Below, piece after piece: positions 14,682 to 62,844 of a stretch of DNA of 64,000 nucleotides (its first letter is position 1; each line of letters begins with the position of its first letter). The stretch covers positions 434,001 through 498,000 of the forward strand of contig NZ_PYYB01000001.1 in NCBI RefSeq assembly GCF_003044185.1. The letters run 5' to 3'. The translations under genes were made by a program, and so were the position numbers. The notes beneath the pieces are model-generated. The model saw only the letters and a program-made list of their open reading frames with translations, did no database searches and was not told the DNA's origin. Source of the DNA: Paraconexibacter algicola (GTDB lineage Bacteria > Actinomycetota > Thermoleophilia > Solirubrobacterales > Solirubrobacteraceae).

Positions 14682-15080
14682 CTACTCGCTCTGCCGGCCG
14701 AGGATGGCGACGAACCGCTCGATGCGGCGGCGCTCCTCCTCGGGGAGCGGCCCGTCGATCTCGACGAGCAGCGTCATCGGGCCGCGCTTGCGCGCCCACT
14801 CCTTCGTCCCGTCGGTGAAGGACGGCGCGCACCAGATCGTCGGCAGCCGCGTCGCGTACGCGATGACGGTGCGCTCCTGCGCACCCTGGTCGGCCTCCGT
14901 GCGGACCACCTGGACGGTGACGAGGTCGAGCGCGTGCGCGGTCGCGTCGATCGCGGCGAGGCCGCCGTCGTCCACGACGAGCGCGATCTCGCCGTCGCGG
15001 AGCATCTCGATCGCCCATCCGGGCGTGATCCCGTCGAGTGCGGCGGGCGGGGCGACGAAGCGGAAGTTCGGGGAGGCCAC
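14682..15080 (-). CDS. Conserved-looking hypothetical protein
   Basis: 132 residues from GTG 15080. Soluble and acidic, with a plausible alpha/beta layout (EIALVVDDGGLAAIDATAHALDLVTVQVVRTEADQG, TVIAYATRLPTIWCAPSF) and a charged C-terminal helix. No family recognised. It lies upstream of the DoxX gene in the same direction and 36 bases downstream of the amidase gene. Confidence 0.65.
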   Translation of the reverse strand: MASPNFRFVAPPAALDGITPGWAIEMLRDGEIALVVDDGGLAAIDATAHALDLVTVQVVRTEADQGAQERTVIAYATRLPTIWCAPSFTDGTKEWARKRGPMTLLVEIDGPLPEEERRRIERFVAILGRQSE

Positions 15081-15116
15081 GGCGCCACGGTATCCCGATC
15101 GCGCGCGGCGCGTCGC

Positions 15117-16538
15117 TCAGACCGCCGCGAACACGGGCGGCCGGCGCTCGTGCCAGCGCTCGACCTCCTGCAGCTGGGCGGCGAGACCGAGCAGCCGGCC
15201 CTCGCTGCACGCCGGCCCGAGCAACGTCGCGCCGACCGGCAGCCCGTCGACGAGCCCGGCCGGGACGTTCACCCCGGGCCAGCCGACGACGTTCCACGGC
15301 CACGAGTACGGGCACGCGGCGATCATGCGCTTGTCGGTCTGCCAGCTGCTGAGCCCGTCGATGGCCCCGATCGCGGGGGGCGGCTGCGCGGTCGTCGGGG
15401 CGAGGACCACGTCGTGCGCGCGGAACACGGCGCCGAGCTGGAGCCGCAGCAGCGCCTCGGCGCGGCGGGCGAGCCACAGCAGCGGACCGCCGAGCAGCGC
15501 GCCGGTGCGCGCGTTCTCGCGCGTGCGGTGGTCCAGCCGCGCCGGGTCGGGCACGCGCCCCGCCCACTCGCGCACGCCCGCGGTCGAGCGCGGGACGAAG
15601 CTCAGGCCGACGAGCCCGTAGCTCGGGTCGGCCGGCGTGACCTCGTGGCCGAGCCCCTCGAGCACCGCGCCGAGCCGCTCCACCTGCTCGCGCACGCGGG
15701 GGTCGAGGCGCGCGGGCGGCCCGCTGAACGGCACGGCGGTGGAGAGCGCGATCCGCAGCCGCCCGGGCTCGCGCGCGGCCGCGGCGGCGAACGACTCGGC
15801 CGGCGCGGGCGGGCGGTGGCGCTCGCGCGGGTGGTTGCCGGTCGCGGCGTCGAGCAGCAGGGCGGCGTCCTGCACCGTCCGCGCCAGCGGCCCGTTGCAC
15901 GTGAGGCCGTTGAACGCCTCCGCGTCGGGCCAGGTGGAGACGCGGCCGCGCTGGGGCTTCACGCCGACGAGACCCGTCCACGCGGCGGGGATGCGGACCG
16001 AGCCGGCGCCGTCGGACCCGAGTGCAGCGGGCACGAGCCCGGCGGCCACGGCGGCGGCCGACCCGCCGCTGGAGCCCCCGGGGGTGTGATCGGTGTTCCA
16101 GGGGTTGCGGGTGACGCCGAAGCCGGGACCCTCGGTGAACGGCCACTGACCGAACTCGGGGGTCGTGGTCTTGCCGACGATCACGGCGCCCGCGACGCGC
16201 AGGCGCCGGACGACCTCGGCGTCCTGCTCGACGACGGGGAAGTCGCCGACGCAGCCGAACGGGGTGGTCTCCCCCGCGACGTCGGTGTCGTCCTTCACCG
16301 CGATCGGGACGCCGAGCAGCGGCGCGCGTTCCCCGCGGGCGAGCGCGGCGTCGGCCGCGTCGGCCTCGGCGAGCGCGGCCTCGTGACGGACGCGGCGGAA
16401 CGCGCCGAGCTGCGCGCCGACCCCGTCGATCGCGTCGAGCGAGCGCTGCACGAGCTCGCGGGACGTCACGTCGCCCGCGGCGAGCGCGGCCGCCCGGTCC
16501 GCGAGCCCCGCCGTCCCACCCTCCAGAAGTTCGGACAT
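15117..16538 (-). CDS. Amidase signature (AS) family hydrolase under TetR control
   Basis: 473 residues, the standard size. The triad is K82 (PIAVKDDTD), S156 (TPGGSSGGS) and S180 (SDGAGSVRIP); note DGAGS in place of the commoner DxGGS. The N-terminal helix SRELVQRSLDAI is present, unlike in the amidase at 9505-10626. It should hydrolyse a small-molecule amide in the cytoplasm. ATG 16538 lies inside the first of two palindromic operators shared with the divergent TetR gene, so repression would block the start site directly. The inducing compound may be the amidase substrate. Confidence 0.9.
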   Translation of the reverse strand: MSELLEGGTAGLADRAAALAAGDVTSRELVQRSLDAIDGVGAQLGAFRRVRHEAALAEADAADAALARGERAPLLGVPIAVKDDTDVAGETTPFGCVGDFPVVEQDAEVVRRLRVAGAVIVGKTTTPEFGQWPFTEGPGFGVTRNPWNTDHTPGGSSGGSAAAVAAGLVPAALGSDGAGSVRIPAAWTGLVGVKPQRGRVSTWPDAEAFNGLTCNGPLARTVQDAALLLDAATGNHPRERHRPPAPAESFAAAAAREPGRLRIALSTAVPFSGPPARLDPRVREQVERLGAVLEGLGHEVTPADPSYGLVGLSFVPRSTAGVREWAGRVPDPARLDHRTRENARTGALLGGPLLWLARRAEALLRLQLGAVFRAHDVVLAPTTAQPPPAIGAIDGLSSWQTDKRMIAACPYSWPWNVVGWPGVNVPAGLVDGLPVGATLLGPACSEGRLLGLAAQLQEVERWHERRPPVFAAV

Positions 16539-51025: not shown

Positions 51026-51244
51026 CTAGCGGCGCACCCCGCGGATCGCGGGAAGCTCGATGTAGGGCTCGACGCTCGGTGGGGGGACCGCGCGCACCAC
51101 GCCGGCCGCCGGGATCTCCGGGTCCCCGGGCGCGGTGAGGATGCCGACGGCGCCGCCGAGCAGCAGCAGCCCCAGGACCGTCGCGGCGATGGTCGCGATG
51201 CGGCGATACTTGGAGACGGGCAGTCGCAGGGAGGGACGCCTCAT
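51026..51244 (-). CDS. Small single-pass membrane protein of the type VII-like locus
   Basis: 72 residues from ATG 51244, which overlaps the pseudokinase stop by four bases (ATGA). A basic N-terminus (MRRPSLRLPVSKYRR) is followed by one transmembrane helix IATIAATVLGLLLLGGAVGIL and a Pro-rich extracytoplasmic tail. It could take the place of the small membrane subunit EssA, but size and sequence do not prove it. Tightly coupled between pseudokinase and WXG100 genes. Confidence 0.7.
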   Translation of the reverse strand: MRRPSLRLPVSKYRRIATIAATVLGLLLLGGAVGILTAPGDPEIPAAGVVRAVPPPSVEPYIELPAIRGVRR

Positions 51245-53016
51245 CGACCCACCCGGAACCCGAGGCGCCGCAGGCGGCGGACGCTCTCTCGCAGATCGGC
51301 GTCGGCCCGGAGCGCCTCGCGACGGAGGCGACGCGTCGGCGCTCGCTGCCGCAGGGCGACCGAGTACCGGTCCCAGCGGGTCGCGGCGCTGCTCAGCCGT
51401 CGCTGTACCCCGTCGGTGGCCACCGCGGCGATCGGGCCGAGCTCCGCCAGCGCGTTGCGGGCGGCGCGGTAGGTCTCCGCCAGGTCGCGGCCGCCCTGGA
51501 TGCGCTCCTCGAGCCGCCGCGCCTGGAGGCCGCCGACGGGCTCCGAGCGCTGCTCGCCGAGATCCTCGAATACCGTCTGGATCCCGCGCACCAGCGCGGT
51601 CGGCAGCCGTGGTGGCACGGCGCCGTCGAGCGCGGCGGTCGTGATCGTGCGGGCGCAGATCGCCTGGCTGGCCGAGGCGCACCGCGCGACGAGGGTCCGG
51701 TCGCGCGCGGGTCGCGCAAGGACGACGCCGTCGGCCGCCGTGTATCGGAGGATCTCGGTGCCGCCCGCGGCGACCACGGTGGCGGTGTCGGTCGGGTCGA
51801 TGCCGAGACCCTCGAGGGTCTCGCGGTTCAGCGGGTCGGGCGGCGGACCAAACGGGAAGACGGCGAGACCGGTCGACGTCCCGGGCACCGCGCCCTCGGG
51901 CCGCCCGGTGATCGCTGCCCGTGCCCCGGCGAAGGTCGCTGGTGCCGCGTCGAGCAGCGCGGGCACCGCGATGCCGTCGATCTCGGCGACGGGGCGCGGC
52001 TCGGGCGCGAGCAGCCGTCCGCCGGCGAGCCCGAGCGCGACGACCGCCATCCCGGACGCGGTGATGAGGCCGGCTCGTGCGATGCGGCGCCACGTGTTCG
52101 TCGGGGTGGCGTCCTGGGCTTCCGGCGAGGCGACGAGGACCCGGTCGATTCGCGTGACGCTGCCGATCTCGGGCAGGTGCGCCACGGTCCGGCCGAGCGG
52201 CACGCGCGTGCTGCTGCCGTCGGTGGTCGCGGCGAGGAACGCCTCGACGAACGCGGTCGGGCTGGGCCAGCGCTCCTGGGGGTCGAGGGCGAGCGCGCGG
52301 GCCAGGACGCGTTCGGCGCCGGGCCACCAGGGGGCGTCGAGCTCCGGGATGACGACGGGGGCCGACCGACGGACCACGACGGCGCCGTGGTCGGCGCCCT
52401 CGTACGGCGCCTGGTCGGCGAGGGCCAGGAGGGCGAGACCGCCGAGGCCGAAGACGTCGCTGCGCGGCTCGGCGCGCCCGGCGATTGCCTCGGGTGCGAG
52501 ATGGCGCATGCGCTCGAGCAGGGTGTCGTCCGCGACCCGGGTGGCGCCGCTGAGGCGCGAGTCGCCGAGGTCGGCGAGGAGGCCGTCTCCGCGCCGGTGG
52601 ACGAGGATGCTCGCCGGGCGGACCTCGCCGTGCACGATGCCGACGGCGTGTGCGGCCTCGAGTCCCCGGGCGACGTCGAGCAGGACCCGTCCGAGACCGC
52701 CGACCGTCAGCGTGCCCGCGCTGTCGGCGAGCGGCACGGCGTCGACGGCTGCGGTGACCACGTAGAACCGGCCCCCGGGCAGGTAGCCGGCGTCGAGCAC
52801 CGGCGTGAGCCCCGGGTGCTCGATCCCGGCGATCCCGCGGACGACCCGGAGCAGGTCGTCGTCCTGCGCGCCTTCGGCGAGGAGGTGGAGCCGGATCGTG
52901 ACCCGGCGGCCGAGCGCGGTGTGACGCGCCCGCAGGACGGTCGAGCCGGCGCCGCGCGAGACGACGCGCTCGACGACGTAGCCGTCGATCTCGGGAAGGG
53001 TGTCCTGCAGGGTCAT
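51241..53016 (-). CDS. Membrane pseudokinase, EssB/YukC-like in architecture
   Basis: 591 residues. Residues 10-265 have a Ser/Thr kinase fold pattern but key residues are changed: VAIK lysine is R42 (RVTIRLHLL), HRDxKxxN is H129-G130-E131-x-R133-x-x-S136 (HGEVRPAS), and DFG is D149-L150-G151; the APE motif (174-176) and later D187 are kept. It should therefore not phosphorylate efficiently. One membrane helix (about 314-334) follows, then about 255 residues outside, mostly helical near the end. Firmicute EssB/YukC has just this order: cytoplasmic pseudokinase-like domain, single helix, extracytoplasmic helical domain. It lies between two WXG100 genes, with ATGA overlap to the next gene. Confidence 0.82.
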   Translation of the reverse strand: MTLQDTLPEIDGYVVERVVSRGAGSTVLRARHTALGRRVTIRLHLLAEGAQDDDLLRVVRGIAGIEHPGLTPVLDAGYLPGGRFYVVTAAVDAVPLADSAGTLTVGGLGRVLLDVARGLEAAHAVGIVHGEVRPASILVHRRGDGLLADLGDSRLSGATRVADDTLLERMRHLAPEAIAGRAEPRSDVFGLGGLALLALADQAPYEGADHGAVVVRRSAPVVIPELDAPWWPGAERVLARALALDPQERWPSPTAFVEAFLAATTDGSSTRVPLGRTVAHLPEIGSVTRIDRVLVASPEAQDATPTNTWRRIARAGLITASGMAVVALGLAGGRLLAPEPRPVAEIDGIAVPALLDAAPATFAGARAAITGRPEGAVPGTSTGLAVFPFGPPPDPLNRETLEGLGIDPTDTATVVAAGGTEILRYTAADGVVLARPARDRTLVARCASASQAICARTITTAALDGAVPPRLPTALVRGIQTVFEDLGEQRSEPVGGLQARRLEERIQGGRDLAETYRAARNALAELGPIAAVATDGVQRRLSSAATRWDRYSVALRQRAPTRRLRREALRADADLRESVRRLRRLGFRVGR

Positions 53017-53420: not shown

Positions 53421-53444
53421 AATCTATGCAGAATCTTGGCGCAA
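53421..53444 (-). promoter_or_regulatory. Promoter-like element B of the type VII-like locus
   Basis: Read on the minus strand: TTGCGC, 12 bases, TAGATT, with TTGCGT 17 bases upstream of TAGATT as a possible -35. It overlaps the stop codon of the EssC-like gene and stands 44 bases before the WXG100 start, which carries a good SD. The same spaced pattern occurs at 59692-59715 and 62853-62876. Confidence 0.6.
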
Positions 53445-56400
53445 CGCAATGTCGGGTCGCGCCACCTGCACGGGAACGACCTGCCCGCCGTCGACGAGCA
53501 CACCCCGACCGGGAAGCCGTGGCGCCCGCTGCAGCGACCGCGGATAGGTCACCCCGAAGACGTCCCCGTCGTCGACCGATGGCTCGAGGTGCACCGCGCA
53601 GCCCTGCCGACGCAGGGTCTTCAGCCATGGCGAGTAGTGCCGCAGCTGCGCGGACTCGATGGCGGCGATCACGCGGACGGCCCCGTCCCGCCCGGCGGCG
53701 AGGAGCGCCTCGAGATCGTCGTCGGCTCGCAGGACGTCCTCCAGCTCCACCGCATCGTCGACCACGACGAGCAGGACGGGACCGTCGGGGTCGCGGAACT
53801 CCGGCACCCGCGTCAGCAGCGCCTTGAGCGCCGCGGCGCAGTCGGCCACACCACGCACCTGCGACGTCCACCCGGGCATCCCGGCGAGCGACGACCGGCG
53901 CGGGAGCAGCAGATGGGCCTCCGCGACGTCGTCGATCAGGCCCTGGGCGATCGTCGCGACCGTCGTCGAGCGCCCGGTCCGCATCGGACCCGCGACCAGC
54001 AGGTGGCCGCTCTCGAGGCTGACGCCGATCGCCGAGAGACGCTCGCCCTCCACGCCCAGGGTCGCCGTCAGGCGACCCTGGGCCGGCCCGAGCGGTGCGA
54101 GGTCCACCACGGTCGGCATCCGCCCGATCGCCGGCGCACGCTCGATCTCGCGGTCGGCCACGGTCGCGGCCCAGGCGCGGAACGCGGCGTCCTCCTCCGT
54201 CGCCAGGGTCGTCGCCGCGGTCCGCGCGATCTGGACCTCGAGGTCCCGATCGAGGAATCCGCGCCCCGCGGGCAGGTCCGGGCCACCGACGCCTGCGGCG
54301 AGCCCCAGCAGCGCATAGTCGTCCTCCGCGGCCATCCGCAGGACGAGCCGCCGCGGGACGGCGGCCGCGATCGGCGTCGGGATCGATGCCCGGCGGTCGC
54401 CGGAGATGACGAGGTGGATCCCTGCGCCCCGGCCGTCGGCGACGAGCCGGACGACGAGATCCAGGAGCCGCCCGCGCTCGACGTCCTGGAACGCCTCGGC
54501 GAACGCGGTCCAGCCGTCGACCAGCAGGACGTGACGGGGCAGGGTCGCGTCGGGTCGCCGCTCGCGGAGCGTGTCGAGGTCGTTGGCGTGCTCCTGGACG
54601 AACGCTCGCTGGCGCTCCTCCAGCGTCTCGACGAGCAGCTGCAGCACGCGCTCGACGCGCTCGACGTCCTCCGGCACGACGACGGCGGAGGTGTGCGGCA
54701 GGTCCGCGAGCTGCCGCAGCCCTCCTCCTCCCGCGTCGATGGCGTGCAGGTGCAGTCGTCGGACCGGGGTGTCCGCGGCGAGGCTCGCGGCGATCTGGCG
54801 CAGCGTGGACGACCGCCCCGAGCCCGACGCCCCATAGACCAGGAACGAGCCGACGGCACGGAGGTCCACGCGCGCGACGGTCTGTCGTTGGCGGCGAGGC
54901 TCGTCGGCCAGTCCGAGGGTCGCCACGCCGTCCGGTTCGGGACCCAGGTCCCCGAGGTCGGCCCGTGCGATCGCGGGCGGGAGGGGCGCCAGCCACGGCC
55001 GCGGGGGCGCGACCTCCCCGGCCAGTGCTGTCGCCTCCTCGATCGTCGCGACGAGCCGCTGCAGGTCGGTCGGCCCCTGGTCCACGTCCGGCCGGGCGCT
55101 TGCGCCGACGTCGTCGGAGCGCAACCGGATGCGCACCGAGCCGTCGTCCTCGCCGGGGCGCGGGGTCCAGCCTCCGCCGTAGGCGGTCTGGACCTCGGTC
55201 AGCTCGCCGGGGCCGATCCGCACCAGGACGCGTCCCGGGATGGAACGCGGAAGCCGGGCCGCGTCGGGGACGTCGACGACGTCGTCGCTGTCCTCGGTGG
55301 ACGCGACGCGCAGCGCCATCCGCAGGGTCGTGTTCGCGCGGATGTTCGCCGTGATCGCACCGCTCGGGCGCTGGGTGGCGAGGACGAGGTGCACCCCGAG
55401 GGAGCGACCTCGCTGGGCGACGTCCACGACGCCCGCCACGAACGCCGGGACCTCCTTGGCGAGCGTGGCGAACTCGTCGATGACGATGACGAGTGGCGCC
55501 GGCGCGTCGGCGGAGCGGCGCTCGAGCTCGAGCAGGTCCTTGGCACCGGCCGCGGCCAGCAGGTGCTCACGGCGCTTGAGCTCCGCCTCGAGCGAGACGA
55601 GCGCCCGTCGGACCTCGTGCTCGTCGAGATCGGTGACGAGGCCGACGCAGTGCGGGAGCTGTCCGACGTCCTTGAACGCCGCGCCGCCCTTGTAGTCGAT
55701 CAGGAGGAACGACAAGCGCGACGGCGGGTGCGCTGCCGCGAGCGACGCGATCATCGTCTGCAGCAGCTCGCTCTTGCCGGCGCCGGTGGTGCCGGCGACG
55801 AGTCCGTGCGGACCCTGGTCGCGCAGATCGATCTCCCAGGGACCGTCCGGCCCGGCACCGAGCGGCGCGGCGAGCCCTGCCCCGGTGAGGTCGTCCCAGC
55901 GGTCCATGATGGGCTCCGGCTGCAGGTCCGTGAGATCGAGCAGCTCGAGCAGCGAGACGCGCCGGGGCAGCTCTCCGCCGCCGGCGGCGGTCACGTCACG
56001 CAGCGGGGCGAGGCTGCGCCCGATGCGGTCCGCGGTCTCGAGCTCCAGCTGGTCGACGGTCATGTCCGCGATGTGGACGCCGCTGGCCGCCCAGGTCGCG
56101 CTGCCGCGCCCCGGCTGGTCCGGGTGGAGCTCGACGATGGCGCCGCACCCACCGGGGAGGTCGGCGCGCTGCCCGGCGAGCCAGAGCACGTGCACCTCGT
56201 GCTCGGCGCAGCCCTCGAGCAGGGACGCCACGACGCTGCGGTCGGGTGCGACGACATCGTCCAGCACCAGCAGCACGCCGGTACGCCCCGTCTGGCGGGG
56301 ACGGTCGTCCGCGCGTCGTTCCGCGAGCACCGCGATGACCGTGCGGACGAGCTCGTCGGTCGCCTGCCGTCCGATCGCGATGCGGTCACCGTCGATCAGG

Positions 56401-57821
56401 GTCGAGGGCGCGGTGACGTGCGGCAGCCACGAGAGCCAGGTCTCCTGCTCGGCGAGCGCCTCGGAGATCCCGGCCACGATGACGAGGTCGAGCGGGCTGC
56501 GCAGCGTCGCGGCCTGCACGAGCATCGCGCGGGCGGCGGCGTGGCGCGCGGCCTCCGGGCCGACGACGCCGACAGCGCCCACCGTGCGCAGGTCGACCAT
56601 CACCGGAACGGCAGGGACCGTCATCAGCGGCTCGAGGCTGTCGCGGGCCTCCTGCCGCAGCTCGATGTCGCCGGTCCGCGGGAGCTCGATGGTCGCCTCG
56701 GTCGGCTGGTCCGCGGTGCCGAGACGCAGTGCCATCGCATCGGGGTCGGTCGCCCTGCGCTCCCAGAGCTCGGCTTGGAGGCCCGTCGCACGCGCCTCCA
56801 GCTCGGCGAGGTCCGGTGCGAGCCGCCGCCGGGCGGCCCGCTCGTGGGCGTGGTCGATCACCAGCCGCTCCCGTTGCTCGACGAGGTCGTGCTCCCACGC
56901 GCGGACGTCCTGCGCGTGCTCGGAGTCGTCGTAGCGCCGGTCGGCGATCGCGTTGGCGAGCAGCAGCACGGGCGTGAGGCAGGCCATCACGATCGCGATC
57001 GGAGAACGCGTGATGAGGTAGATCGCGATCCCGATGACCATCGGCATGGCGATCAGGAACCAGGGGATCTGCTGACGCCGCTGGCGCATGGGCGGGCTGT
57101 CCAGACGCACCGATCCGGGGGCGTAGGTCGTGCGGATCCGGGGCGGCCGGTTGAAGGGCACGGCGCCGGCCGCCCCGGCGGCGGGGACGCGGGAGGCGGC
57201 GACACGGACGGTCAGCGGCGCGTCGACCACGGCGAAGACCGTGCGGCCCGCCTCGACGACCGCGCCACGCTCCAGGACCTCCGGGGTCTCGGGGCGCAAT
57301 GGCCGACCGTCGACCGCCGTGCCGTTGCTCGTGCCGAGGTCGCTGACGACCACCGTTCCGCCGGGGTCCACCACGAGCGCGACGTGCTCGCGAGACAGCG
57401 CCGGATCCTGCACGGTCACGTCGGCGGCTTCCGCCCGGCCGATGGTCGTCCGCCCGGGGGGCAGGGCGATCCGCGCGCCGGCCCGACATCCGCCGACGAT
57501 GCGCAGCTCGACCGCGGTCGCCGCGACGTCGACCTCCCGACCGAGGCGGCCCAGGGCGACGATGTCTCCGTCCCGCAGGCCACTGGCCGCGACGGTGGTC
57601 ACGCCGGAGATCGCCCCGAGCCGCCGGACGTCGAGGCCCCCCGGCGCGTCGACGCCGAGCCGGTCGGCCAGCGCCGCCGCGACCGCACCGACGGTCGCGG
57701 TCGCGGGCGCGTCGATCTCGACGTCGACCGGATCACGTCGCGGCCCCGGAATGACCGAGAGCCGCAGCGTGGAACGGGCCACGCGGACCGGGTCCTCGCG
57801 GCGCTCGCGCATCTCGGTCAC
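53424..57821 (-). CDS. FtsK/SpoIIIE ATPase of type VII secretion, EssC-like, with N-terminal Ubl-like and FHA domains
   Basis: 1465 residues from GTG 57821. Residues 15-95 resemble the ubiquitin-like YukD/EsaB or EccD N-terminus (ending GLRDGDIVALGRL). Residues about 105-195 are an FHA domain with G128-R129, S143, H146 and N166, able to bind phosphothreonine. Two membrane helices (about 252-292) follow, then three ATPase modules: Walker A GTTGAGKS near 677-684, degenerate GASGSGRS near 997-1004, and GPMRTGRS near 1276-1284 (Lys replaced by Arg in the last two). Order and size match EssC of Firmicutes more than EccC of mycobacteria, which lacks FHA domains. It powers export of WXG100 proteins across the membrane. 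Confidence 0.93.
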   Translation of the reverse strand: MTEMRERREDPVRVARSTLRLSVIPGPRRDPVDVEIDAPATATVGAVAAALADRLGVDAPGGLDVRRLGAISGVTTVAASGLRDGDIVALGRLGREVDVAATAVELRIVGGCRAGARIALPPGRTTIGRAEAADVTVQDPALSREHVALVVDPGGTVVVSDLGTSNGTAVDGRPLRPETPEVLERGAVVEAGRTVFAVVDAPLTVRVAASRVPAAGAAGAVPFNRPPRIRTTYAPGSVRLDSPPMRQRRQQIPWFLIAMPMVIGIAIYLITRSPIAIVMACLTPVLLLANAIADRRYDDSEHAQDVRAWEHDLVEQRERLVIDHAHERAARRRLAPDLAELEARATGLQAELWERRATDPDAMALRLGTADQPTEATIELPRTGDIELRQEARDSLEPLMTVPAVPVMVDLRTVGAVGVVGPEAARHAAARAMLVQAATLRSPLDLVIVAGISEALAEQETWLSWLPHVTAPSTLIDGDRIAIGRQATDELVRTVIAVLAERRADDRPRQTGRTGVLLVLDDVVAPDRSVVASLLEGCAEHEVHVLWLAGQRADLPGGCGAIVELHPDQPGRGSATWAASGVHIADMTVDQLELETADRIGRSLAPLRDVTAAGGGELPRRVSLLELLDLTDLQPEPIMDRWDDLTGAGLAAPLGAGPDGPWEIDLRDQGPHGLVAGTTGAGKSELLQTMIASLAAAHPPSRLSFLLIDYKGGAAFKDVGQLPHCVGLVTDLDEHEVRRALVSLEAELKRREHLLAAAGAKDLLELERRSADAPAPLVIVIDEFATLAKEVPAFVAGVVDVAQRGRSLGVHLVLATQRPSGAITANIRANTTLRMALRVASTEDSDDVVDVPDAARLPRSIPGRVLVRIGPGELTEVQTAYGGGWTPRPGEDDGSVRIRLRSDDVGASARPDVDQGPTDLQRLVATIEEATALAGEVAPPRPWLAPLPPAIARADLGDLGPEPDGVATLGLADEPRRQRQTVARVDLRAVGSFLVYGASGSGRSSTLRQIAASLAADTPVRRLHLHAIDAGGGGLRQLADLPHTSAVVVPEDVERVERVLQLLVETLEERQRAFVQEHANDLDTLRERRPDATLPRHVLLVDGWTAFAEAFQDVERGRLLDLVVRLVADGRGAGIHLVISGDRRASIPTPIAAAVPRRLVLRMAAEDDYALLGLAAGVGGPDLPAGRGFLDRDLEVQIARTAATTLATEEDAAFRAWAATVADREIERAPAIGRMPTVVDLAPLGPAQGRLTATLGVEGERLSAIGVSLESGHLLVAGPMRTGRSTTVATIAQGLIDDVAEAHLLLPRRSSLAGMPGWTSQVRGVADCAAALKALLTRVPEFRDPDGPVLLVVVDDAVELEDVLRADDDLEALLAAGRDGAVRVIAAIESAQLRHYSPWLKTLRRQGCAVHLEPSVDDGDVFGVTYPRSLQRAPRLPGRGVLVDGGQVVPVQVARPDIALRQDSA

Positions 57822-60527: not shown

Positions 60528-60910
60528 CAGTCGACCCCGGTGGGACCGTCGCTCGGGGGTGCGGGCCGCGGCGCCGGACGCGGCACCACCACGGGCGGGC
60601 GCGGCACGACGGGCGGACTCGGCTGCACGGGCGTCACCGGCGCGCTGCGGGACGGGGTGCCCCTCGCCGGCTGGACGGGTGACGCGACGCTCCGCTTCGG
60701 CCGCCGGGGTCGTGCGAGCGCGCGGACGTCGATCCGCCCGGCGGGCAGTCCGGCCGGGGGCACCGTCACCGGACCCGGGGCCGCAACCACCTCGGTGGCC
60801 CCGAGGTCGCGCCACGGATCGTCGTCGGGTGCGGTCGCCTGCGCCACCCCGAGCCCGCCCACGGCGCCCAGCAGCGCGAGCGCTCCGCCGAGGACCGCCG
60901 AACGGCTCAC
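60527..60910 (-). CDS. Proline-rich protein with N-terminal membrane segment
   Basis: 127 residues from GTG 60910 (GTGA overlap with the kinase stop). Hydrophobic AVLGGALALLGAVGGLGVAQA near the start, then Pro/Arg-rich low complexity (PVVPRPPVVVPRPAPRPAPP). It is probably anchored or exported; Pro-rich chains of this kind can span the cell wall. Translationally coupled on both sides in the kinase operon. Confidence 0.65.
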   Translation of the reverse strand: MSRSAVLGGALALLGAVGGLGVAQATAPDDDPWRDLGATEVVAAPGPVTVPPAGLPAGRIDVRALARPRRPKRSVASPVQPARGTPSRSAPVTPVQPSPPVVPRPPVVVPRPAPRPAPPSDGPTGVD

Positions 60911-62844
60911 CGCCCCGCCTCCTTCACCGGATATCCCAGGCGCCCGGCTCGCGCCACGCGGTCGCGCAGCGCTCGGAGCGCCGAGGACAGCGCGCGCCCG
61001 GCCTTCCTGTGCCTGCCGCGGTCCGCGGTCGCGGCGGCGCGGGCGAGCGCGCGGGCTCGCGCTGCCGCCCGGTCAGTGCTCGCCACGACGCTCCGCAGCG
61101 CCGTGGACCGGCCCTCGCGGCGCTCCTGCGCCGCCAGGGGACGCAGTCGCGCGGAGACCGACCGCAGCGTGCCGACGAGCTCGCGCGCGGCGCGGGCCTG
61201 TGTCGCGCCGCGCCGCGACGCCTCCAGCACCCCCTTGGCGGTCCCGACCGCAGCGCGCAGGCGGTCGACCTGGACGCGAACCGCCTCGAGCCGCGCGCGC
61301 GGGATCCCCAGCGGCACGGACGTCGCGCCGCGGACCCGCAGCGTCGCGACGAGACGGAGACAGGCGACGGTCCCGTCGCAGCGCAGCTCGACGTCACCGG
61401 TCGTGGTCGGGACGACGAAGCGGTCGCCATCCTGCATCGCGACGAAGGCACCGAGGCGGACTGGGCGCGGGGCACGCAGCGGCACGCCGTCGACCGGGGC
61501 GGCACCGGCCAGCGGCCCGCGGCTGGGCAGCACGGTCGCCCTCAGCGTGGTCCCGGCGACCCGCACGGTGCCCCCGGAGTCGGTCCGCCGGACCTGCGCG
61601 GCCGCGTCGACGGGTCCGAAGCTCAGCCCGCCCCCGAGGCGGACCGGCACCGTGTCGGCAGGGCCGGCCGGCCGGGCGAGCGCGAACCCGGCGACGAAGA
61701 GCAGGACGGCGGCGAGACCTCCCACGATCCGCGCGTCGACGGCCGGGAGCGTGGGCCGTTGACGGGCGGCACGCGGCTCGGGATCCCGCCTGGGCTTCGG
61801 TGGCGTCTCGCGCTCCGCCGCGGCGGCACGGGGCGGTGCGGGCACGGCGACGACCGGCGGCGGGGGCTCGACGTCGCGCTCGGGCGCCGCGACGGGCTCG
61901 GGCACGATCGCGGGTGCAGGATCAGGATCCGGGGCGACCGGCGTCGCGCTCTCCAGGAGCGGGGCCGACGGGAACATCGGCGCCAGCCCGAGCCGCTCGG
62001 AGCCCAGGCCGACGAGTGCGTCGCGGATGTCCGCGACGAACCGCTCGACGTCCGTCTCGCGGTCGACCGGATCCTTCGCCAGAGCCCGATCGAGGACCTC
62101 CTGGATCCGTCGCCCCTCGGGGCCGTCGAGCCCCGGAAGGCGCGGCGGGGGATCGGCGAGATGCGCCATGAGCACGGCCGCCTCGGTCGGACGCGGGAAC
62201 GGCACCTGGCCGGTCAGCAGCTGACACGCGAGGCAGGCGAGGGAGTAGACGTCCGAGGCCACCGTGAGGTCCTCGGCCTTGATCTGCTCCGGGCTCGCGT
62301 AGGCGGCCGTCCCGACGAACGCTCCCGTGGCGGTGAGCCCCGCGTCCGCGACGCCCTTGACGACCCCGAAGTCCGCGAGGTACGCCCACCCGGCGCGCGT
62401 GAGGAGCACGTTCTGGGGCTTGATGTCGCGATGGACGAGTCCGGCGTCGTGTGCCGCGGCGAGCGCGCTGCCGACGGCGCGGAGCAGCTCGAGCGCTTCC
62501 CGGCCGCTGAGCGGCCCCTGGCGCAGGCGGTCCCCGACGGTCCCACCGTCGACCAGCTGCATCGCGATGTAGAGGTGCCCGTCCGCCGATCCGAAGTCGT
62601 AGACGGGGACGACGTGCGGATGCTCGAGTCCTGCGGCGGTCCGCGCCTCACGCTCGAACCGCTGGACGAACTGGGTGTCCGAGGCCAGGCTGCGGTCCAT
62701 GACCTTGAGCGCGACCGGGCGATCGAGGGAGACCTGACGGGCGGCGTAGACGGTCGACATGCCGCCGAGTCCGACCAGGCGCTCGATCCGGTACGCGCCG
62801 ACGACCTCCCCCGCCTGCAGATGTCTCCCGATCCCGACGCTCAC
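60907..62844 (-). CDS. Transmembrane Ser/Thr protein kinase (PknB-like)
   Basis: 645 residues from GTG 62844. Complete kinase core: glycine loop LGGMSTVY (about 26-33), K47 in VALKVMD, HRDIKPQN (138-145), DFG (158-160), PEQ (185-187) and D198. A Pro-rich linker leads to one membrane helix (about 372-390) and an extracytoplasmic region of about 250 residues, Arg/Ala-rich and probably helical at the end. It probably phosphorylates partners of the type VII-like machine; the FHA domain of the EssC-like ATPase is an obvious reader. The promoter-like element A lies 8 bases upstream of GTG. Confidence 0.92.
   Translation of the reverse strand: MSVGIGRHLQAGEVVGAYRIERLVGLGGMSTVYAARQVSLDRPVALKVMDRSLASDTQFVQRFEREARTAAGLEHPHVVPVYDFGSADGHLYIAMQLVDGGTVGDRLRQGPLSGREALELLRAVGSALAAAHDAGLVHRDIKPQNVLLTRAGWAYLADFGVVKGVADAGLTATGAFVGTAAYASPEQIKAEDLTVASDVYSLACLACQLLTGQVPFPRPTEAAVLMAHLADPPPRLPGLDGPEGRRIQEVLDRALAKDPVDRETDVERFVADIRDALVGLGSERLGLAPMFPSAPLLESATPVAPDPDPAPAIVPEPVAAPERDVEPPPPVVAVPAPPRAAAAERETPPKPRRDPEPRAARQRPTLPAVDARIVGGLAAVLLFVAGFALARPAGPADTVPVRLGGGLSFGPVDAAAQVRRTDSGGTVRVAGTTLRATVLPSRGPLAGAAPVDGVPLRAPRPVRLGAFVAMQDGDRFVVPTTTGDVELRCDGTVACLRLVATLRVRGATSVPLGIPRARLEAVRVQVDRLRAAVGTAKGVLEASRRGATQARAARELVGTLRSVSARLRPLAAQERREGRSTALRSVVASTDRAAARARALARAAATADRGRHRKAGRALSSALRALRDRVARAGRLGYPVKEAGR

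Follow-up and report, generated by a model that had tools for sequence, protein, structure and literature searches.

Which kind of secretion system is served by a motor ATPase that appears to carry a ubiquitin-like (Ubl) domain at its own N-terminus? This question is raised by a gene on the reverse strand of a 64,000 nt stretch of the Paraconexibacter algicola (Actinomycetota) genome, the whole of which is referred to here as the window. The gene encodes an ATPase of the FtsK/SpoIIIE type with a candidate Ubl domain, an FHA domain, a membrane anchor and the modules D0 to D3 (Table 1). Described relatives in type VII secretion systems (T7SS) carry the Ubl component as a separate protein or as part of another protein, whereas here it seems to be located on the motor, beside the FHA domain. 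The explanation favoured in this work, with a probability of roughly 70%, is that the protein serves as motor ATPase in a compact type VII-like secretion system found in Actinomycetota, belongs to a clade separate from both EccC and EssC/TsdC, and works by the mechanism proposed below. The designations G, C and L with numbers are used for sampled genomes, contigs and loci, respectively.

The open reading frame begins with a GTG start codon and was the top frame of the region by codon composition. The Pfam family FtsK_SpoIIIE (PF01580) was matched with 202.9 bits and thus over its gathering cut-off of 24. The top NCBIfam model was EssC (TIGR03928) with 535.2 bits, below the equivalog cut-off of 778.4, and the EccCa and EccCb profiles scored 375.3 bits (cut-off 509.15) and 326.8 bits (cut-off 346.55). 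Due to the fact that EssC, EccCa and EccCb all remained under their cut-offs, the protein is regarded as T7SS-type, yet outside all named equivalogs. The closest solved structures were an EccC-type FtsK/SpoIIIE protein, presumably EccC of T. curvata, as well as YukB and EccC5. A search of the genome contigs for close homologues returned a single unrelated FHA match, and PADLOC reported generic kinase and HerA/Ssp-type similarity only.

Several comparisons support the view that residues 17-95 are akin to the Ubl domains of YukD and EccD and not to FHA domains. The first domain of the ATPase ends in GLRDGDIVAL and is followed by the FHA domain. When residues 16-97 were searched against Pfam up to an E-value of 10, YukD (PF08817) was the sole family found, aligned at positions 6-75 of 76 with 15.6 bits; since this is less than the gathering cut-off of 27, the domain is termed YukD-like and is not counted as a Pfam YukD member. 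A profile of 20 homologous N-termini, including that of the window itself, was aligned by hhalign to a reference profile of nine YukD/EccD-type domains and reached 96.8% over 73 columns. The score obtained with the window columns only was 46.5, while the top of 200 column shuffles was 13.4 and the reversed profile gave 14.4, so that none of the 200 shuffles came close. Homology to YukD/EccD Ubl domains was therefore found at the level of profiles, as had been suggested in a sequence-only reading of this DNA; that part of the suggestion holds, while the direct Pfam match stays below the cut-off.

The domain is a recurrent feature of the family. Among 28 further ATPase frames (L107-L134), one was outside the family (L133) and one was cut by a contig end (L110), which left 26 for assessment, all outside the set used for profile building. 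The N-terminal domain was clear in 24 of these (20 initially and 4 once their starts had been fetched) and weak in L134 (5.7-7.1 bits) and L125 (4.7 bits). In genome G058 the top YukD match genome-wide was the N-terminus of its copy of the window-type ATPase (22.7 bits), and the copy in G038 was likewise matched by the YukD profile (20.1 bits). The same scan of the P. algicola genome gave two weak matches, one of which was the N-terminus of the window ATPase (14.6 bits); the other overlaps genes that were read from their translations as cytochrome oxidase-like and was taken as chance. Searches with the N-terminus against sequences of solved structures returned ribosomal protein S3 chains only, which were judged to be chance matches, and no match was found in PHROGs.

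In a tree based on residues 221-1180, 35 family rows were separated from 4 EccC rows and 8 EssC/TsdC-type rows, with support of 100/100 in each case. Before this tree was made, 12 rows had been dropped, of which three were short and the other nine were further family members; an earlier 51-row tree agrees with it. Because only residues 221-1180 were used, the N-terminus did not shape the clade. The Ubl fusion marks a third clade of T7SS ATPases apart from EccC (T7SSa) and EssC/TsdC (T7SSb, d, e). Out of 296 sampled Actinomycetota genomes, 55 matched the ATPase at 1e-40, and at least 29 hold the window-type family (the genome of the window, G244 and 27 of the 28 loci L107-L134), the remainder being EccC-like, EssC-like or unread. 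Within the order of P. algicola 13 of 232 genomes matched at 1e-45 and within its class 8 of 249 at 1e-60, some of the matches being EccC-like. Named members were found in plasmid records of Streptomyces, Curtobacterium, Nonomuraea, Rothia and Arthrobacter, where the annotation goes no further than FtsK/SpoIIIE domain-containing protein; in two Streptomyces the plasmid-borne members adjoin WXG100 genes and putative T7SS-secreted genes.

Motifs were counted in 47 family rows, of which no pair is more than 90% identical and none was dropped, three rows being without D2 and D3. The P-loop lysine of D1 and a Walker B motif ending in DE were present in 47 of 47 rows. At the lysine position of the D2 P-loop K was found in 23, R in 15 and T in 6 of 44 readable rows, and in D3 R in 32, K in 10 and V in 2 of 44. 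The catalytic glutamate of Walker B is absent from D2 in all 44 rows, and at this position in D3 D occurs in 37 and E in 2 of 43 rows. In the window ATPase D1 alone combines a lysine P-loop with a DE Walker B. The sequence-only reading had described an ATPase at this place with an FHA domain, one canonical Walker A and arginine instead of the Walker lysine in modules 2 and 3. The reading frame, the FHA domain, the three P-loops and both arginine motifs were confirmed; the expected conservation of the arginine, on the other hand, applies to module 3 and fails for module 2, where lysine is found in 23 of 44 homologues. With R in 15/44 and 32/44 rows, the arginine of the window is a recurring minority state in D2 and the majority state in D3. 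As a side observation, the threonine in the D2 P-loop (GxxGSGTT type) is found in a sub-clade consisting of L039, L053, L069, L114, L122 and L126.

D1 is likely to be the single active motor as far as hydrolysis is concerned. This would be no novelty, as one catalytic motor (D1) with degenerate D2 and D3 is an already described state of T7SS ATPases (PMC11154593; this and all other papers are cited from excerpts). The strongest alternative, judged less probable than not, is that D2 and D3 are not dead and that their arginine P-loops bind nucleotide, which would give stacked nucleotide rings instead of one motor. The D2 P-loop of Staphylococcus aureus EssC has Arg1020, and the complex fails to assemble when Walker A and B of D2 are substituted together (PMC9436818); an arginine in the P-loop therefore need not mean a dead module. 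The lysine in about half of the D2 modules and the retained final P-loop glycines point in the same direction. Hydrolysis by D2 or D3 is unlikely because of the Walker B counts (0/44 and 2/43), an argument which concerns hydrolysis and not binding.

The second alternative is that the system is T7SSd, the Ubl component of which would merely have escaped notice owing to its fusion to TsdC. According to the excerpted text of a 2024 survey, T7SSd (TsdA, C, D, H and I; Olsenella, Bifidobacterium) is the sole new actinobacterial subtype and has no ubiquitin-like protein (Garrett et al. 2024, PMC11217815). The parts lists are alike, both comprising WXG100 proteins, an ATPase with a phospho-type FHA domain, a membrane kinase encoded beside the ATPase gene, a protein with one transmembrane (TM) segment and, nearby, a secreted Ig/fn3-like protein, which in the window is putative, all in Actinomycetota. 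A cluster in G750 fits T7SSd as described, with WXG100, ATPase and kinase genes and a frame of 1653 codons compared with the printed 1654 amino acids (aa) of TsdI. However, its TsdC-type ATPase is without the Ubl domain (0.1 bits) and falls into the EssC group, from which the window clade is split off at 100/100. On the basis of the ATPases from the order of G504, including that of G750, the idea that T7SSd hides an identical fused domain was rejected, and this alternative is considered unlikely; the window ATPase bears a fused Ubl-like domain, whereas no ubiquitin-like component is reported for T7SSd in the survey excerpt.

A related arrangement was observed in the same order. Locus L138 (G504:C20, 4893-16641) encodes an EssC/TsdC-type ATPase without Ubl and a free YukD-like protein of 79 aa (14914-15153), which scores 9.6 bits with either profile. 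The cluster, which belongs to Actinomycetota, also has WXG100-like and LXG-like proteins, the latter assigned by eye; T7SSe is reported as confined to Bacillota. A free YukD next to an ATPase without Ubl is what would be expected if fused and free forms replace each other, albeit in a single case.

The similarities to T7SSb extend to the FHA domain beside the membrane anchor, the order of the core domains, the EssC profile as the top match, a pseudokinase-type partner (EssB/YukC in T7SSb) and an EsaB-type domain (free EsaB/YukD in T7SSb). In contrast, the window ATPase lies under the EssC cut-off and in a separate clade, has the fused Ubl where EssC has FHA1, and is accompanied by a pseudokinase-type protein of other sequence in a genome without an EssB family match. 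It is very unlikely that residues 1-100 are a degenerate FHA1 and the protein thus an ordinary EssC with two FHA domains. Strings like 'GDIVALG' occur in FHA domains too. EssC has two FHA domains at that place (PMC9600267, PMC9436818). Against this, the N-terminal profile reached 1.9% over 27 columns with the FHA profile of the same proteins, from which five with a degenerate FHA had been left out, and Pfam returned YukD alone; the domain profile found none of the N-termini in 17 reference frames (EccC, EssC, TsdC-type and L133; some without their own start and one pair representing a single locus), the best match being non-N-terminal with 4.6 bits. The order of a Ubl-like domain followed by FHA, as given in the sequence-only reading, is thereby borne out, and a second FHA was not found. 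With T7SSa (ESX) the system shares the ATPase core, two WXG100 genes and a Ubl domain within a larger core protein. It differs in that the Ubl is on the motor and not on the polytopic membrane protein EccD, in that neither EccB nor EccD exceeds its cut-off in the genome, and in that the ATPase has an FHA domain and forms a separate clade.

The FHA domain of the window ATPase was detected over cut-off with PF00498 (52.7 bits, cut-off 20.7) and with PF16697 (Yop-YscD_cpl, 54.6 bits, cut-off 33.2). The phosphothreonine-type residues G128, R129, S143, H146 and N166 are present, and R129, S143, H146 and N166 are retained in 33, 33, 33 and 32 of 47 family rows. EssC FHA domains are described as lacking such residues, while TsdC and TseC retain them (PMC11217815, excerpt), which sets the window FHA apart from T7SSb. 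Phospho-reading by this domain is plausible, in agreement with the built-in phosphopeptide reader that had been suggested from the letters alone, though not for the entire clade.

The genes around the ATPase lie on the same strand and are transcribed in the order canonical kinase, 262-aa protein, 614-aa protein, ATPase, WXG100, kinase-like protein, 72-aa protein and second WXG100 (Table 1).

Table 1. Predicted features of the ATPase and its gene neighbourhood (positions in the window; aa, amino acids; TM, transmembrane segment).
Feature	Position	Strand	Basis
T7SS-type FtsK/SpoIIIE ATPase, 1465 aa (Ubl - FHA - 2 TM - D0 - D1 - D2 - D3)	53424..57821	(-)	family profiles, clade placement
YukD/EsaB-like domain, predicted ubiquitin fold, residues 17-95	57537..57773	(-)	hhalign, shuffles, sub-cut-off Pfam YukD match
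FHA domain, residues 103-200, with G128 R129 S143 R144 H146 N166 G167 T168	57222..57515	(-)	PF00498, PF16697 over cut-off
Two hydrophobic segments (membrane anchor), residues 252-293	56943..57068	(-)	hydropathy
Walker A of D1, GTTGAGKS, residues 677-684, canonical	55770..55793	(-)	motif reading
Walker A of D2, GASGSGRS, residues 997-1004	54810..54833	(-)	motif reading
Walker A of D3, GPMRTGRS, residues 1278-1285	53967..53990	(-)	motif reading
Membrane Ser/Thr kinase, 645 aa, canonical motifs VALKV, HRDIKPQN, LADFG	60907..62844	(-)	Pkinase 145.5 bits; one TM
262-aa secreted-looking protein, N-terminal hydrophobic segment	59739..60527	(-)	hydropathy, codon composition
614-aa secreted-looking protein, N-terminal hydrophobic segment	57841..59685	(-)	fn3 21.3 bits, below cut-off 25
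WXG100 protein, 96 aa	53086..53376	(-)	PF06013 46.0 bits (cut-off 27.3); TIGR03930 48.6 (cut-off 44.85)
Membrane kinase-like protein, 591 aa, degenerate motifs VTIRL, HGEVRP, LADLG	51241..53016	(-)	Pkinase 40.6 bits; one TM
72-aa protein, one hydrophobic segment; frame overlaps end of kinase-like gene	51026..51244	(-)	no family match
Second WXG100 protein, 96 aa	50687..50977	(-)	PF06013 45.5 bits (cut-off 27.3); TIGR03930 48.8 (cut-off 44.85)

The kinase-like protein of 591 aa is probably a pseudokinase. A kinase-like frame was found near 17 of 23 family loci (sampled neighbourhoods with flanks of unequal length and no background rate), and a canonical kinase paired with a degenerate one at three loci, namely the window, G044 and G058. 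Full-length homology of the two window kinases is not secure, since BLAST gave an E-value of 1e-33 only with composition correction and low-complexity filter switched off; with the correction on, just 23 residues were aligned (E 3.1), and therefore only a common kinase fold is claimed. The two secreted-looking proteins located between the kinase and ATPase genes are at most weakly fn3-like, and hydropathy revealed in neither of them a C-terminal hydrophobic segment such as would fit TsdI of T7SSd, a large protein with a signal peptide and a C-terminal TM. That the locus is a decayed or DNA-moving FtsK-like one without a secretion system is the least probable of the alternatives, for although PF01580 is common to FtsK DNA translocases and no effector-like gene was recognised among eight scanned neighbours, the FtsK profile reached 73 bits compared with 535 and 375 for EssC and EccC, two intact WXG100 genes are part of the run and the D1 motifs are intact throughout the family.

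Other T7SS components were sought in the genome, the completeness of which is 96% according to the tool used. Neither EccB nor EssB/YukC (PF10140) was matched at E-values up to 1, the best genome match of EccD had 9.9 bits (cut-off 94.95), and the whole-genome profile scan yielded no separate YukD over cut-off. EsaA and EssA were without a match among the scanned neighbours, no genome-wide search having been made for these two. Since the genome offers no second plausible YukD-like match and lacks matches above cut-off for EccB, EccD and EssB, the core looks smaller, in line with the earlier proposal of fewer separate core proteins.

In the mechanism proposed for this compact system, ATP hydrolysis by D1 would drive the two neighbouring WXG100 proteins through the membrane, and D2 and D3 would act as nucleotide-sensing or substrate-docking rings. 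The fused Ubl may do in cis the job of the free EsaB or of the EccD domain elsewhere. The FHA domain would dock the neighbouring kinases, of which the degenerate one would provide a scaffold in the manner of EssB, and the canonical one would write a phosphothreonine mark that gates assembly. By analogy with YukB, whose FHA region binds the pseudokinase YukC (PMC9600267), the partner of the window FHA would be one or the other kinase, with phosphothreonine as a possible point of contact.

Several observations weigh against this explanation. Not only the window domain but also the corresponding stretch of the homologue L035 (23.0 bits, E 1.4e-4) remains under the YukD cut-off of 27, and individual family members obtain low scores with a profile made from the nine Ubl references (7.2 bits for the window). 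Single-sequence AlphaFold models, made with no alignment, reached a confidence (pLDDT) of 43.7 for residues 14-205 and 54.3 for residues 16-97; a Foldseek search with the latter gave nothing significant, with FliD at the top and ubiquitin at rank 28 (E 6.2). These low-confidence models show a beta-beta-alpha-beta order, and because they are too poor for use the ubiquitin fold is derived from the sequence profiles. Approximately one third of the members, L066, L067, L068 and L071 among them, have a degenerate FHA domain, and phospho-gating therefore cannot be clade-wide. A kinase was not found at 6 of the 23 family loci (G055, G244 and four plasmid loci). Finally, a two-hybrid assay showed no binding of Bacillus subtilis YukD to YukB (PMC9600267, excerpt), a result that is hard to reconcile with simple binding to the motor.

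A wider proposal is regarded as evenly balanced, namely that the family represents an unnamed T7SS subtype across Actinomycetota, characterised by a third ATPase lineage with the Ubl welded to the motor before a phosphothreonine-reading FHA domain and by control through two membrane kinases, an active one and a pseudokinase, and needing no EccB/D, EssA/B or EsaA. In the open-licence PMC papers searched, no description of a T7SS motor with a fused YukD-like domain was found; domain databases may list the Ubl-FHA-motor architecture already. Elsewhere, a YukD-like domain was observed fused to a P-loop protein (L078, G038:C129; L077, G067:C13; L082, G018:C1), labelled MinD/ParA-like by eye from its KGGVGKTT or KGGPGKTT motif and in G038 encoded directly after an EccC-type ATPase gene; the ubiquitin-like domain may have a further carrier in this fusion. 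At L079 (G209), L080 (G025) and L081 (G111), all from one order, a YukD-like protein of about 90 aa was seen that stands alone and is strongly conserved.

The role of EsaB/YukD in type VII secretion is described as unclear (PMC11217815, excerpt). Since a YukD relative is fused to the motor clade-wide, a Rosetta-stone argument would have EsaB/YukD act directly on the ATPase, and the fusion hints that the Ubl works directly on the motor. If the proposal of an unnamed subtype is true, EsaB acts on the motor with one copy per subunit, and a second actinobacterial T7SS lineage, with a fused Ubl, would alter the picture given in the excerpted part of the survey, in which the Ubl-less T7SSd stands alone.

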